A stretch of 36,228 nt of DNA from Verrucomicrobiota bacterium (GTDB lineage: Bacteria; Verrucomicrobiota; Verrucomicrobiia; Chthoniobacterales; JAFAMB01), in contig JAFAHI010000353.1 of assembly GCA_019237325.1 (NCBI GenBank), positions 1 through 36,228 on the forward strand. Reading direction: 5' to 3'. Each line of letters opens with the position of its first letter. The first letter of the stretch is position 1. Of this stretch, positions 8,076 to 36,228 are shown one piece after another. The notes below the pieces were generated by a model. The model made no database searches. It worked only from the letters and a program-made list of their open reading frames with translations, and was not told where the DNA came from. The translations under genes were made by a program, and so were the position numbers.

Positions 8076-9461
8076 ATGGTTGGAAATTGGGGGTACGTCG
8101 AACGCATCAACGTGAACCGACGGTTCCAGCCCAGTCATTATCATGAGATCTTCAATGTTGCCTGGCCTGTCGGCTTGGAGGCGGTTTTTCAGTCTTCTTT
8201 TAGTCTGATCGATCAAGTGATCGTTGGCTCTTTAGGCGCCAGTGCTGTGGCTGCAGTTGGTTTATCTAACAATCTTTCGTTCATTCTCACGCTCTTATAC
8301 GCTGCCATCGGAACCGGTAGCGGTGCGTTCATAGCCCAGGCTTATGGCCGCCAGGATCTGGACGAAGTTTCAAAGATCGCCGCTATTGGTCAAACCGTTG
8401 CGGCCAGCTTAGGAGTTTGCAGCTCCATTCCTTTGATCCTGTTCCCTAGCCCAATTCTGCGGTTGGTAGGAGCGCAGGAAGAGTTGGTGAAGATTGCCTC
8501 TGTGTATCTGCAACTATTTGCGGCCTCGGCGCCACTCACGGTGATGAGCGCGGTTACTACGGCCACGTTTCGTTCGATGAGTGACTCGCGAACGCCGATG
8601 GCAATTACGATGGCGTCTGTATGTTTGAATACTCTGCTGGCACTGCTTTTGGTTCTAGGGATGGGTGGCGCTCCTCACTTAGGCGTAGCCGGCGCTGGGT
8701 TAGCAACCTTGATCTCTCAAGGTGTTCGGGCGGTCGTGCTGGTGACGGTGCTTTATTCAGTGAAGAAAGGAATGCGTTGGTACTGGCCAGTCAGGTCGAT
8801 TATTACTCGGATCGGTCCACCGTTATTCAAGGTAACTTACCCAATTGCATTGAGTGAGATGCTTTGGGGGACAAGCACTTTTGCTTACGTTGTCATTTTT
8901 ACGAGAATCGGCACCGGAGCTCTGGCCTCAAGCCAGATCGTTACTACGATGGAGAATCTTTTCATCTTAGCCGCTTCTGGCTTAGCTCCAGCCGCGGTGG
9001 CCACTGTGGGCCAGGCGCTTGGATCCGACGCCACGGAAAATGCCCAGCGACAAGCTCGCCGGGTGCTACATGTCGCCCTTGTGGCCGGACTTCTCTTCAC
9101 CGCGCTTCTTGCCGGTGTCAGTTTTCTTTTACCGGTAATCTATCCTCGGATTGATAGACAGGTTCTGAATTTAGCCTTTTGGGGCATCCTGATTGTGGCC
9201 GCTGTCCAACCCGCTAAAACAGTGAATAGTGTTCTCGGTACCGGTACTCTTCCTAGCGGTGGAGATACCAAGTTCGTACTGCTCAGTCATGTAGTCAGTA
9301 GTTATGCCGTTGGTCTACCGATTGGAGCGTCGACAGCACTCCTCCTCGGGTGGGGCCCTCTTACTACCTTTGGTTCCAGAGCATTAGAGGAGCTATTAAA
9401 ATCCGCGCTTCTGTTTGCGCGGTACCGAACCCGGGCATGGCAAAGAGAATTAGGGACATAG
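8076..9461 (+). CDS. MATE-family multidrug/sodium antiporter
   Basis: A 461-residue polytopic inner-membrane transporter of the MATE family, which exports cationic compounds in exchange for Na+ or H+. Seen: about 12 hydrophobic segments in two pseudo-repeats. The first carries the typical NVAWPVGLEAVFQSSFSLIDQVIVG opening pattern (given here as residues 27-51), GTGSGAFIAQAYGRQD and FRSMSDSRTPM. The second begins YPIALSEMLWG and has APAAVATVGQALG and the SVLGTGTLPSGGDTKF loop, which resembles the R-G-x-GDT pattern of the family. The length is usual. ATG 8076 has a GAGAGG close upstream; the extra N-terminal 25 residues may mean a later start. The substrate cannot be predicted. Confidence 0.93.
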   Translation: MVGNWGYVERINVNRRFQPSHYHEIFNVAWPVGLEAVFQSSFSLIDQVIVGSLGASAVAAVGLSNNLSFILTLLYAAIGTGSGAFIAQAYGRQDLDEVSKIAAIGQTVAASLGVCSSIPLILFPSPILRLVGAQEELVKIASVYLQLFAASAPLTVMSAVTTATFRSMSDSRTPMAITMASVCLNTLLALLLVLGMGGAPHLGVAGAGLATLISQGVRAVVLVTVLYSVKKGMRWYWPVRSIITRIGPPLFKVTYPIALSEMLWGTSTFAYVVIFTRIGTGALASSQIVTTMENLFILAASGLAPAAVATVGQALGSDATENAQRQARRVLHVALVAGLLFTALLAGVSFLLPVIYPRIDRQVLNLAFWGILIVAAVQPAKTVNSVLGTGTLPSGGDTKFVLLSHVVSSYAVGLPIGASTALLLGWGPLTTFGSRALEELLKSALLFARYRTRAWQRELGT

Positions 9462-10553: not shown

Positions 10554-10757
10554 CCGGTAGCGGCGACTGTCCATGAGGCCTAATGGTGTGCCTTAATCTA
10601 TCATTTAAACGCAGCGATCGGTATTCCTAGGCTCAACGCCCAGTCGCCATCGGAGCGTCAATGGCGACTGCGTTCTGAGGCTAACCAGACCTGCGGCTTC
10701 GATATTATTACGGTTTTGAGCACACGATTGGGCCTCTTGGACAGTCGCCTCTACCGG
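10554..10757. repeat. Four-arm palindromic element with GGCGACTG core
   Basis: Outer arms CCGGTAGCGGCGACTGTCCA (10554-10573) and 10738-10757 are inverted copies matching at 19 of 20 positions. Inner arms CAGTCGCCAT (10641-10650) and ATGGCGACTG (10661-10670) are perfect. The shared core GGCGACTG occurs as plus 10562-10569, minus 10641-10648, plus 10663-10670, minus 10742-10749, with gaps of 71, 14 and 71 bases. It fills the gap between the response regulator and the convergent FAD monooxygenase. The geometry matches the elements at 25.7 and 27.2 kb although the arm sequence is unrelated. Confidence 0.8.
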
Positions 10758-17212: not shown

Positions 17213-17353
17213 AAAATGTCCAAACTTCCGTGGTTTCTGGTAGCGGCCGGGATGGAATCGCTCAGACGAAGCGCCGGTGCTTACCCCTTACTCTGGAGCT
17301 AGGCCTGCTGACCGCTTGGCTGAGTTAGGAAATGACGCCATTACCAACATTAG

Positions 17354-17527
17354 CCGCGAATGGACACGAACTGACGCGAAACAGAGAGACTAAAACAAAC
17401 GCAGTTTAGCGCAGATGTAGGCAGATAAATTTCCTTCCGTGATTTTATTGCGTCATATATGTGTGCATCTTGTGATCGTCTTTTTTCTTCGTGTCCATTC
17501 GCGGTTTAGATTCGTGTCCATTCGCGG
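17354..17527. repeat. CCGCGAATGGACACGAA inverted repeat, left of DUF1275 gene
   Basis: CCGCGAATGGACACGAA at 17354-17370 is repeated in perfect inversion at 17488-17504 and again at 17511-17527, the last two being tandem direct copies separated by TTTAGA. Between the arms is a second motif, GCGCAGATGTAGGCAGAT (about 17409-17426), related to the CCGCAGATG repeat at 7.9 kb. The rightmost arm ends 19 bases before the DUF1275 start codon. The same 17-base word occurs again just after that gene. Confidence 0.85.
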
Positions 17528-18237: not shown

Positions 18238-18320
18238 ACACAAATCTGAACCGCGAATGGACACGAATAGACGCGAATTTCTTCTTTTATTCGTGTCCAT
18301 TCGCGGTTTGAATTTGTGTG
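18238..18320. repeat. CCGCGAATGGACACGAA inverted repeat, right of DUF1275 gene
   Basis: Perfect 21-base inverted arms at 18249-18269 and 18288-18308 around an 18-base loop, each containing CCGCGAATGGACACGAA or its complement. Pairing continues imperfectly outward (ACACAAAT on the left, ATTTGTGTGT on the right). It begins about 10 bases after the DUF1275 stop, so the transcript would end in, or run through, a very stable hairpin. No T-run follows. It is the same repeat as on the other side of the gene. Confidence 0.88.
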
Positions 18321-25747: not shown

Positions 25748-26033
25748 CCTGGAGGGGAGCCGCTTTTGACCGCCGCAATACCGCTAGCATGATCGCGCGA
25801 AAAATCGAGACACCACCGCACGTTATGTAGCAGGCGGCTCCCGGAAACGTCTCCACGCTTGAACAACCCGCAACGTGTCCGATCGGACGAACCAACGGAA
25901 ATGATCCAGGAGATTGCGACACCAGGAGACGTTCGCGGGAGCCGCCTGCCAACACATCTCACCCCAACAGACACTAAAACTTAGTGAATACGGGTTTAAG
26001 TCAGGCCACGCTGTAAAGCGGCTCCCCTCCAGG
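25748..26033. repeat. Four-arm palindromic element, GGGAGCCGC core, copy E1
   Basis: Outer arms CCTGGAGGGGAGCCGCTTT (25748-25766) and its perfect 19-base inverse (26015-26033). Inner arms 25831-25854 and 25925-25948 are inverse copies matching at 22 of 24 positions. The shared core GGGAGCCGC runs plus 25755-25763, minus 25834-25842, plus 25937-25945, minus 26018-26026, with gaps of 70, 94 and 72 bases. The intervening sequences do not pair with each other. It occupies most of the 470-base gap before the L,D-transpeptidase gene; the rest of the gap shows nothing else. Confidence 0.88.
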
Positions 26034-26145
26034 CGCTGGGACCGGCGCCTGCTTGAATCGAAAGAAGCCCTAGTATAGTTCGCGTACTCTATGGAGGATC
26101 GAATACGACCAAGGACTCTGCGCGATCCGAATTTGGTTGAAGAGT

Positions 26146-27147
26146 ATGCGTCATGGAGTTCGGTTGTTAGCGCCCGTTTTTTGGGGGGTCATGATGCTAA
26201 ACGTTTCTCGGTTGTCAGGCTTCGAGAACCGATCTTCGCAGCCACCGGATATCTCAAGCGCTTCCCCCACTCACGATCGTGAAACGATCATACGTCTCAA
26301 GATTTTTTTAGACCAGCATTCCTTTGGGCCGGGAGAAATCGATGATCGCTGGACTGATCTCTGCGCGAACGCACTGCGACTTTATCAAGTCACGAACGGC
26401 AGTGGCGCCCCCGGGATCGACTCGGAGTTAAAGCAACAATTGAGCAATCTCACGCCGCTCTACGTGAGTTACCAGATCAAGTCCGATGATTCGGCTTGGG
26501 TGGGTAAATCTCCACAGAAGCCTGCCGCTCAGGCGAAGCGTAAGTTTATGCCTTATCCGTCGATCGCTGATTTCGTTGCCGAGCGTTTTCATACCAACCT
26601 GTCATTTCTGGCCAATCTAAATCGGGGAAAGAATCTCGGTGAATTGCGCCCTGGCGATACCGTGCAGGTCCCCAATGTATCTCCTTTGGAGCTTTCGGGG
26701 CTTAAGGAAGCCGATGATGTTCCGCCCAGACCGGCGCTTAAGACTCGCCGCGTCGAGATTGATACCAAAAGCAAAACTTTAACCATTACGGACGGCGGGA
26801 AAATATTAGCCGCATTCCCGATCACTCCAGGCTCAAAGCAGCTGCCGGCTCCGATTGGAACCTGGCAAATAGTGAAAATAGCAACTTTGCCATGGTTTCG
26901 ATGGGACAAAGCAATGCTGATGCATGGCAAACGCAGTGGAAATTTTCATACCATTCCTCCCGGACCTAGAAACGAGGTGGGTCTGGTCTGGATCGGTCTT
27001 AACAAGAAAGGCATCGGAATTCATGGGACCAATAACCCCGACTCGATTGGCCACTCCGCCAGCCATGGCTGTATCCGTCTGGCGAATTGGGATGCGGTCC
27101 GGGTGCTGAATGCGGTGACACAGGGAGTGACGGCTGAGATCAAGTGA
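26146..27147 (+). CDS. L,D-transpeptidase (YkuD) with PG-binding and LysM-like parts
   Basis: A 333-residue cell-wall enzyme that forms 3-3 peptide cross-links or anchors proteins to peptidoglycan. Seen: an N-terminal hydrophobic signal or anchor (LLAPVFWGVMMLNV), a putative peptidoglycan-binding helical segment (about 47-85), a LysM-like segment (SIADFVAERFHTNLSFLANLN with LRPGDTVQVPN, about 139-178), and a YkuD domain with His293 in IHGTNNP and the catalytic SHGCIRL (His307, Cys309). ATG 26146 is preferred over TTG 26137; no strong ribosome site. The gene is bracketed by two copies of the same four-arm palindromic element, 113 bases before and 40-70 bases after it. Confidence 0.92.
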   Translation: MRHGVRLLAPVFWGVMMLNVSRLSGFENRSSQPPDISSASPTHDRETIIRLKIFLDQHSFGPGEIDDRWTDLCANALRLYQVTNGSGAPGIDSELKQQLSNLTPLYVSYQIKSDDSAWVGKSPQKPAAQAKRKFMPYPSIADFVAERFHTNLSFLANLNRGKNLGELRPGDTVQVPNVSPLELSGLKEADDVPPRPALKTRRVEIDTKSKTLTITDGGKILAAFPITPGSKQLPAPIGTWQIVKIATLPWFRWDKAMLMHGKRSGNFHTIPPGPRNEVGLVWIGLNKKGIGIHGTNNPDSIGHSASHGCIRLANWDAVRVLNAVTQGVTAEIK

Positions 27148-27186
27148 CGGCACTGAATCGTGAGACGTGAAAGGTGAAAAGTGAAA

Positions 27187-27533
27187 GGTCACGTCGCCGA
27201 GCGAGGTCAGAGCCGAACGCCTGGAGGGGAGCCGCTTTTAACCGGTCTCAGACCAACCGCATTAATCGCGCGAAAATTCCGGCATTTACCTAGAGGTTCC
27301 ATAACAGGCGGCTCCCGGGAACGTTTCGTCGCATGCCATGTACTATCGGTGTCTCGCACGGTTTTCGTGGTACCAAAGGGTGATGGTACGCGCTGGGTAG
27401 TTTCCGGGAGCCGCCTGCTATCTAACGGTTTAGCCATTTTGCACGATAAGGAGAAACTCGCGCTGGGTTTAGCAACGGTTTGGAGCGGCTCCCCTCCAGG
27501 CCCTTGGCTCAGATCTCGCTCGGCGACGTGACC
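27187..27533. repeat. Four-arm palindromic element, GGGAGCCGC core, copy E2 with extra outer arms
   Basis: Same architecture as E1. Arms: CCTGGAGGGGAGCCGCTTT at 27220-27238 and its inverse at 27482-27500 (17 of 19); inner arms CAGGCGGCTCCCGGGAAC at 27305-27322 and 27400-27417 (17 of 18). Core GGGAGCCGC runs plus 27227-27235, minus 27308-27316, plus 27406-27414, minus 27485-27493; gaps 72, 89 and 70. In addition a perfect 19-base outermost pair, GGTCACGTCGCCGAGCGAG at 27187-27205 and its inverse at 27515-27533, encloses the whole; E1 lacks it. It fills the gap 27148-27603, apart from a GTGAAAGGTGAAAAGTGAAAG simple repeat (27167-27187). Confidence 0.9.
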
Positions 27534-27603
27534 AATCACCAATCGCGTCCCGCTGTTCCCACAGGTCCGAAGTTCCTGAATCCTTCGAATTACTTAGTAG
27601 CCG

Positions 27604-31819: not shown

Positions 31820-32691
31820 TAAAAAAGTCCTTATACGCCACATCATTAGTCCGACGACTCTTCGATTTGAAAAGGGACGTCGACCGAACCGAGCATCCGC
31901 GATTCTCTTGGGCTTTGGTCGCCACGTTACGATCGGTGACAGCCATCCTCTTCGCTCTTTTGTTGGAAGGTGGCATTCTCTCGGCGGACCCGATACCGGT
32001 GCGCCATCCAGAGGGGACTCTCCATGGGTTCCTCTCGATCCGGACGCTCGAAGGAAAGACCATTGCCACCGGTGACCTCATTCAAGTCCCCGATGAAGAT
32101 AGAATTACCTCTCGCCTTCTATTTCATTTCAAGGATGGCTCGATTGAAGACGAGACGACCGTCTTTTCACAACGCAAAATCTTTCATTTGATCAGCGATC
32201 ACCTCGTTGAAAAGGGGCCGTCGTTTCCTGATCCCGTAGATATGTCATTAGAGACGGCCAGCGGAAACGTGACTGTGCATAGGATTGACGGCGCAGGCAA
32301 AGACCACGTCGATACTTATCATTTCGATTTCCCACCGGACCTGGCCAATGGCCTGGTGCTAACATTGTTGAAAAATATCTCGTGGGATAGCCCTGAAACA
32401 AAGGTTTCTTATCTTGCACCGGGATCGAAACCGGTGTTGGTCAAACTAGCAATTTCACTGGGTGGTCAGGAGAAATTCTCGATCCAAGGCTCCCCGGAGA
32501 AGGTCAACCGTCTTATTGTTCGGCCAGAAGTTGAAGGAATTCCCGGTCTACTGATTTCCATTTTTGGCAAGCAACCACCTGATACTTACGTCTGGGTTCT
32601 AGGCGGCGAAGCTCCCACCTTCCTCAAACTGCAGACCCCCGCATATGAAGGAGGGCCGGTTTGGATCACGGAGTTAGCTAGCCCGCAATAA
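31816..32691 (+). CDS. Secreted or membrane-anchored protein of unknown function
   Basis: A 291-residue protein whose ATG overlaps the GH15 stop (ATGA), so it is translationally coupled. Seen: a positively charged N-terminus of about 30 residues, one hydrophobic segment (LRSVTAILFALLLEGGILSA, about 38-57) acting as anchor or signal peptide, then a strand-rich domain: HPEGTLHGFLSIRTLEGKTIATGDLIQ, SRLLFHFKDGSIEDETTVFSQRK, FHFDFPPDLANGLVLTLLKN. I recognise no characterised family; similar proteins are, from memory, hypotheticals in acidobacterial and verrucomicrobial genomes. The pattern of short alternating strands suggests an all-beta lipid- or outer-envelope-type domain. The tie to GH15 may be chance. 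Confidence 0.8.
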   Translation: MIKKSLYATSLVRRLFDLKRDVDRTEHPRFSWALVATLRSVTAILFALLLEGGILSADPIPVRHPEGTLHGFLSIRTLEGKTIATGDLIQVPDEDRITSRLLFHFKDGSIEDETTVFSQRKIFHLISDHLVEKGPSFPDPVDMSLETASGNVTVHRIDGAGKDHVDTYHFDFPPDLANGLVLTLLKNISWDSPETKVSYLAPGSKPVLVKLAISLGGQEKFSIQGSPEKVNRLIVRPEVEGIPGLLISIFGKQPPDTYVWVLGGEAPTFLKLQTPAYEGGPVWITELASPQ

Positions 32692-36045: not shown

Positions 36046-36228
36046 GGTTACGTTGCCGAGCGACATCGGAGGGTTGAACGCCTGGAGGGGAGCCGCTTCA
36101 AAACGTGGCTAGCTCTGTAGCGTGGCAGCAAGCGGCTCCCGGAAACGTCTGCAGGTGTGACCATCGCTCAGCGCCTGGAGGGGAGCCGCTTCAAAACGTG
36201 GCTAGCTCTGTAGCGTGGCAGCAAGCGG
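36046..36228. repeat. GGGAGCCGC-core element E3, tandem form, cut by the window edge
   Basis: Starts with GGTTACGTTGCCGAGCGA (36046-36063), which matches the outermost arm of E2 at 16 of 18 positions. Then a 55-base unit (36081-36135) is repeated without a mismatch at 36174-36228, a period of 93 bases; the second copy runs off the window. Each unit has CCTGGAGGGGAGCCGCTT followed after a short loop by AAGCGGCTCCC, a perfect 11-base stem (36088-36098 with 36130-36140). The gap between paired cores is 35 bases, about half of the 70-72 found in E1 and E2. Confidence 0.85.

Follow-up and report, generated by a model that had tools for sequence, protein, structure and literature searches.

Four-armed palindromic repeats beside an L,D-transpeptidase gene of a Verrucomicrobiota bacterium belong to a genome-wide family probably spread by a cognate RAYT

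The locus and its repeat elements

The window, i.e. the whole stretch of DNA that was analysed (36,228 nucleotides), is contig C32 of the soil Verrucomicrobiota genome G000 (6.05 Mb, 785 contigs). It carries a gene for an L,D-transpeptidase with a four-armed palindromic element on either side, E1 and E2, and the beginning of a tandem array built from the same arms. The features are:

25748-26033: E1, four-arm element (outer arm, loop of 70, inner arm, spacer, inner arm, loop of 72, outer arm)
25748-25766, plus strand: E1 left outer arm, CCTGGAGGGGAGCCGCTTT, a 19-nt perfect inverted repeat with 26015-26033
25830-25854, minus strand: E1 left inner arm, GCAGGCGGCTCCCGGAAACGTCTCC, a 25-nt inverted repeat, 92% complementary to 25925-25949
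25855-25924, unstranded: E1 central spacer, which by comparison would occupy the position of the transposase gene in RAYT loci
25925-25949, plus strand: E1 right inner arm
26015-26033, minus strand: E1 right outer arm, AAAGCGGCTCCCCTCCAGG
26137-27147, plus strand: L,D-transpeptidase gene (YkuD domain; PF03734, 68.8 bits), between E1 and E2
27190-27531, unstranded: E2, four-arm element whose extra outer stem pairs 27190-27219 with 27501-27531
27220-27238, plus strand: E2 left outer arm
27305-27327, minus strand: E2 left inner arm, CAGGCGGCTCCCGGGAACGTTTC
27400-27418, plus strand: E2 right inner arm
27482-27500, minus strand: E2 right outer arm
36081-36228, plus strand: start of a 93-bp tandem array of the same arms with short (35 nt) loops; cores at 36088+, 36132- and 36181+

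The core GGGAGCCGC lies at 25755+, 25834-, 25937+ and 26018- in E1 (gaps of 70, 94 and 72) and at 27227+, 27308-, 27406+ and 27485- in E2 (gaps of 72, 89 and 70). This alternation and these gaps had been described in an earlier, sequence-only reading of the window, and recomputation gave exactly the same values. Two arm sequences, related yet distinct, make up each element, the outer one being CCTGGAGGGGAGCCGCTTT and the inner one GCAGGCGGCTCCCGGAAACGTCTSC. In the window 11 cores were observed against 0.51 expected from shuffled sequence, and no shuffle attained 11. In E2 the 80-nt arms 27181-27260 and 27460-27539 are 79% complementary. The array at 36081-36228 is partial, as the contig ends inside it, and it was probably this array that broke the assembly; arrays of the same kind flank the RAYT gene described below. 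An Rfam search of the window found no family. At 10554-10757 the window also holds a 97-nt inverted repeat, 70% complementary, with a 10-nt loop.

A genome-wide family with fixed spacing

Pattern counts were made over the whole genome, with the reversed pattern as control. The 16-bp outer arm was found at 393 sites with at most two mismatches (control 6), and 284 doublets had a loop of 60-85 nt (control 0). The pattern of the first three arms of a tetrad matched 112 and 105 times on the two strands (control 0). The genome is thus estimated to hold roughly 110-140 copies of the four-armed element, E1 and E2 among them. All other statistics come from 0.73 Mb of contigs, a sample that is unfit for reading densities because most of it (about two thirds) was picked for containing hits. 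In this sample 42 clusters showed the plus, minus, plus, minus order; their loops measured 68-74 nt and their middle gaps 85-98. The histogram of plus-to-minus distances had a sharp peak at 65-75 nt and a small second one at 34-35 nt. Each half of a tetrad consists of a 9-11 bp stem and a 68-74 nt loop, and the whole unit measures about 270-345 bp. The preference for a spacing of 70-72 bases, which the sequence-only reading had proposed to look for, was found, copies were numerous, and the loops did not prove to be conserved as a coding or RNA gene.

The tetrads are biased towards intergenic DNA. With ORFs of at least 130 aa as a crude gene model and overlaps above 30% counted, 9 of 39 tetrads overlapped an ORF, versus 86% of random 270-bp pieces. 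The genes beside tetrads were co-directional in 15 cases, convergent in 8 and divergent in 4.

Among 147 genomes searched, the family was confined to the four genomes of the genus that carry an orthologue of the RAYT described below (G000 and three others, G001, G002 and G003) and to one tetrad contig in a further member of the bacterial family, G010. The three other genomes of the genus contained 33, 292 and 138 doublets; G010 gave seven doublet matches and a real tetrad on a single contig (C13). The arms were absent from the 136 order-level relatives included in this search. Among the matches listed, all GTDB contigs carrying the arm belonged to metagenome-assembled genomes (MAGs) of Verrucomicrobiota.

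The tetrad as the unit of inheritance

The loops were previously thought simply to drift while the arms are kept. Divergence of the loops stood up, but they also fall into subfamilies that travel as fixed pairs. The loops of E1 group with those of copies at L135:244, L136:2027 and L076:725, and the loops of E2 with those at L091:6641, L148:4225, L145:6319 and L089:3103. When the nearest relative of a half was taken, its partner ranked on average 8.4 of 76 among the relatives of the other half (37.5 expected) and stood in the top five in 52 of 78 cases. Since the two loop halves travel in fixed pairs, tetrads are inherited as wholes, and the unit is the complete four-armed element rather than a pair of separate doublets. 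Lone doublets amounted to a handful in the 0.73-Mb sample, some of them tetrads with one decayed arm and a few with short loops.

Folding predictions agree with this unit. E1 was predicted to form a single nested hairpin (z -9.6 as RNA, -7.0 as DNA), and in the RNA folds of the tetrads (z -9.6 and -8.8) outer arm pairs with outer arm and inner with inner. A lone long-loop half of E1 or E2 folded no better than its shuffles (z 0.31 and 0.05). Conserved stems formed by pairing of loop with loop, or by the spacer, were considered and rejected: complementarity within elements was no higher than between elements, and therefore only the arms, and in some copies the outer stem, are supported as paired.

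A probable cognate RAYT flanked by the same arms

RAYTs (REP-associated tyrosine transposases) are HUH single-strand nucleases. They are domesticated, single-copy transposases, and their recognition rule has been established for GTAG-tagged hairpins in E. coli. The window contains no RAYT gene, as already noted from its sequence; a gene of this kind was found on a different contig (G000:C435), with the family's arms on both sides. Its 152-aa product scored 88.9 bits against NCBIfam NF047646 (cut-off 80) and 27 bits against PF01797 (cut-off 23), versus 25.7 against the NCBIfam IS200 model (cut-off 55), and its best PDB match in a sequence-profile search was 4er8, TnpArep of E. coli (8.9e-13). 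The HUH motif (as HIH) and the tyrosine motif YVRNNP are kept, as are W104, Q105, D110, R111 and R114 (positions by comparison with PMC6006769), the residues whose counterparts were reported to read the GTAG guide (PMC6006769). On these sequence criteria the gene is a RAYT. Orthologues in the three other genomes of the genus are 86, 81 and 67% identical, with a dN/dS of about 0.11-0.18.

In all four species arms flank the RAYT gene on both sides, and every flanking hairpin runs from outer to inner arm towards the gene. The same inward orientation was found around a pseudogene (G003:C45) and around a remnant (G000:C742:1322-1941; L112/L148), in which a 32-aa stretch matching the RAYT lies between intact arm arrays. 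With inward hairpins everywhere, the RAYT locus reads as a series of outer-inner hairpins, the gene, and a series of inner-outer hairpins, and the tetrad as one outer-inner hairpin, about 90 bp, and one inner-outer hairpin. The remnant may be a natural intermediate between the RAYT-bearing unit and a passenger form. Two points weigh against a spread of the family by this RAYT: in three of the four species the hairpins next to the RAYT have 35-nt loops, versus about 70 nt in tetrads, and the assemblies compared are fragmented MAGs.

Five Y1 transposase genes were found in the genome, on C435, C188, C368, C284 and C503. No arms of the E1/E2 family were present within the fetched flanks of those on C188, C368 and C284, nor in the flanks of the one on C503, which bears other arms.

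A second RAYT with its own arms

The RAYT paralogue on C503 (G000:C503:8901-9700; L102 1287-2100) is 56% identical to that on C435 and has relatives at G003:C350 (L106) and, with one stop, at G002:C337 (L103). It is flanked by gene-facing arms, GGAGGGGCGTYGCATTCCG outside and GAGACGCGACGCCC inside, with a core gap of 67-69. These second-family arms (GGGGCGTYGCAT ... GCGACGCCC) are unrelated to those of the first family but similarly spaced: gaps in the fetched loci were 67-70 within a search range of 20-120. Counts over both strands were 39 in G000, 22 in G002 and 70 in G003, and none was found in G001 or in seven other members of the bacterial family searched, all of which lack a close relative of the C503 RAYT. 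Since the second paralogue keeps the spacing but has arms of unrelated sequence, arms match their own transposase and the geometry of about 70 nt is common to both. Although correlative, the link between each of the two arm families and a RAYT of its own argues more strongly than anything else that the transposase reads arms and spacing. The inverted repeats with CCGCGAATGGACACGAAT arms at 18238-18319 and 17343-17515 of the window have arms that also enclose the second RAYT locus in G002 (C337, L103).

Occupancy differences between species

Occupancy differed between species at four loci, be it by gain or by loss. Next to the L,D-transpeptidase gene, G003 has E1 with one loop cut to 35 nt and G002 has no E1, and E2 is found at its position in neither relative. 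In place of E2, G002 carries an unrelated nested palindrome with GCCGCGAAGCGGC-type arms (L117:1470-1850), and G003 a doublet from a different arm family. With an unrelated palindrome filling the slot of E2 in G002, a single intergenic slot is seen to hold different palindromes in different species. The earlier emphasis on the two copies sitting on either side of the L,D-transpeptidase gene has to be abandoned: because the relatives have no E2 there and G002 has no E1, the bracketing is incidental and the gene is a bystander.

Positions 27192-27548 (E2 with its outer stem) match G003:C307:1638-2001 at 81%, about 5 kb away. A local inversion that had carried the orthologue of E2 to this place was considered and rejected: in all other respects the contig is collinear with the window, and the copy sits between the equivalents of window positions 32690 and 34508.

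Two more tetrads occur in both G000 and G002 but not in G003, and another is partly deleted in G002. In two orthologous tetrads the arms were kept and the loops differ. Orthologous tetrads with decayed arms indicate that many copies are old, which counts against mobility through the RAYT. Neither an excision nor an insertion was seen in the species comparisons, which also gave no clean empty site on which target-site duplication could be strictly tested; where a tetrad is missing, another palindrome is usually present. Inspection of the 39 listed flanks by eye showed no target-site duplication.

Origin of E1 and E2

The occurrence of the same arms around the RAYT gene in all four species makes E1 and E2 most likely passenger copies; with high probability, judged from sequence comparison, they are non-autonomous and belong to a high-copy mobile repeat family that this RAYT spreads. 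The autonomous form would consist of one or more units of outer arm, loop and inner arm, the RAYT gene, and one or more units of inner arm, loop and outer arm. A tetrad would have the same termini with the gene replaced by a spacer of about 90 bp, much as a MITE derives from its parent element. When single-stranded, as in the lagging-strand template, it could fold into one nested hairpin made up of an outer stem of 19 bp, a two-sided internal loop with about 60-70 nt on each side, and an inner stem of about 20 bp. The RAYT may then recognise and bind the GGGAGCCGC/GCGGCTCCC stem pair held at about 70 nt, cut at the ends of the element and insert a copy elsewhere between genes, frequently within a further palindrome.

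The layout had at first been likened to two back-to-back REP doublets (REPINs). Were the doublets independent and tetrads merely their clusters, the 93-bp doublet arrays beside the RAYT and at the end of the window would be readily understood, as would the few lone short-loop doublets. This is nevertheless unlikely: long-loop doublets almost never stand alone, the order is always outer-inner followed by inner-outer, the two loops are of different types and travel in fixed pairs, and the doublet alone folds like its shuffles (z 0.31 and 0.05), in contrast to the tetrad with its z of -7 to -9.6. What stood of that comparison is a genome-wide palindromic family with fixed spacing, whose arms flank a RAYT in four of four species and whose occupancy differs between species; what did not is the pairing of two doublets, and the arms lack the GTAG or GTGG foot of canonical REPs, as described below.

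It is quite improbable that the tetrads are structures maintained by the host, such as terminators, mRNA 3' structures or sites for a nucleoid protein, with the tie to the RAYT secondary. Their intergenic location, the very stable predicted folding and the two orthologous tetrads that kept their arms while their loops came to differ would suit such a role. However, the orientation of neighbouring genes shows no clear convergent excess over large gaps generally, Rfam gave no match, and sites vary among close species and hold unrelated palindromes; moreover the family is confined to one genus, the G010 contig apart, and its arms flank the RAYT in every species. The 19-nt perfect terminal inverted repeats and the size of about 270 bp would also suit MITEs of a DDE-type transposase, with the RAYT a mere neighbour. 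Against this stand the absence of a visible target-site duplication at the element ends, the framing of the RAYT by arms in the right orientation in four of four species and two decayed copies, and the second arm family framing a second RAYT, so that a DDE origin has very little probability.

Comparison with known systems

The repeat falls outside the canonical GTAG REPs and REPINs. In spite of the guide-reading residues kept by the RAYT, no fixed offset carried a GTRG (GTAG/GTGG) foot in more than 5 of the 78 halves. CGTC, an alternative foot of canonical REPs, is present inside the inner arm (ACGTC), not at the foot of the hairpin, and is absent from the arms flanking the RAYT of G001. Canonical REPs are 20-40 bp with a small loop and form an inverted doublet, and the 9-11 bp stem and 68-74 nt loop found here differ from this. 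The family does share with REPs and REPINs a high copy number, an intergenic and dispersed distribution and conserved ends. REPINs (Bertels and Rainey 2011, PMC3116915) are likewise non-autonomous palindromes, intergenic and present in hundreds per genome, with conserved ends and a variable middle, clustered by cognate RAYT with one RAYT per family. In contrast, a REPIN comprises two REPs with cores of about 16 nt in some 71-110 bp (PMC3116915), whereas the tetrad has four arms in about 270-345 bp, ends that are two-arm stems and no GTAG-type foot.

As far as the TIRtrons/TIRYTs are set out in the sections of Di Nocera et al. (2013, PMC3733652) drawn on here, the tetrad fits them best, as a high-copy, fixed-spacing, double-stem variant. 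TIRtrons too have a RAYT-type HUH transposase between long inverted repeats unlike GTAG REPs, dispersed copies of the repeat, several RAYT paralogues with a repeat of their own and self-complementary ends, and some TIRs are termed 'double palindromic' (PMC3733652). Both a RAYT-like gene between long inverted repeats and a dispersed TIR family are present here. The TIR families in those sections are moderately abundant, whereas here more than 100 tetrads keep a fixed plus, minus, plus, minus order with 68-74 nt loops; the TIR cases given there name no Verrucomicrobia. The motif GGGGWSAS, common to some but not all of the TIRs given there (PMC3733652) and thus optional, is absent from the outer arm, which reads GGGGAGCC.

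Elements of the IS200/IS605 type also have an HUH Y1 transposase of about 150 aa and subterminal hairpins at both ends. Unlike these multi-copy insertion sequences, the RAYT described here is a single-copy gene under purifying selection, and long inverted repeats form its ends.

Nested palindromes

The 40-nt stretches just outside the arms were compared between the two sides of each tetrad, and in 17 of 39 their mutual complementarity exceeded the 95th percentile of mismatched pairs. Several such outer stems are bound to a subfamily (the E2 group), and others are repeats that also occur without tetrads, one of them being the GCCTCGCTTGCGAGGC hairpin beside the RAYT paralogue on C368. A fixed target motif for insertion was rejected, since tetrad flanks are of several unrelated kinds. 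Insertion of REP dimers within palindromes has precedent in the portion of PMC3733652 considered here: in A. variabilis (GTAG-15) and T. roseum (GTAG-23) a repeat is centred in another, long palindrome as it is here, and the T. roseum target palindromes also occur free, again as here. The difference from those dimers (PMC3733652) is that the host palindromes here are of several unrelated kinds, one of which resembles the arms by the RAYT paralogue G000:C368.

We tentatively propose, as an idea somewhat short of even probability, that this clade of RAYTs may read a two-stem unit at a fixed spacing of about 70 nt in place of a GTAG-guided short hairpin, the arm sequence being specific to the paralogue and the geometry common, and that insertion in the middle of palindromes could yield nested (matryoshka) intergenic palindromes. 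Two sister RAYTs with unrelated arms, the same two-stem geometry of about 70 nt and no detected GTAG foot offer a natural experiment on whether sequence, guide or distance is read. The process would be a possible mechanism for the dense, nested and fast-changing intergenic palindromes of soil Verrucomicrobiota, which break assemblies, and the C742 remnant would offer an intermediate from transposase-bearing unit to passenger.

Other palindromes of the genome were noted in passing. A classical REP-like hairpin, GTGGAGCGYTGCCTCGCTTGCGAGGC, adjoins the third RAYT paralogue (G000:C368; L150:7346-7561 and 8565-8598), and its sequence encloses several GGGAGCCGC tetrads elsewhere (L136, L144). Long inverted repeats with simple-looking arms, CGTCCTCGTACTCGTCGTCGTCCTCGTCC, and unrelated interiors of 80-190 nt are abundant (L144:16070-16252, L169:6562-6836, L159:500-660, L146:1245-1470 and L149:1040-1210).
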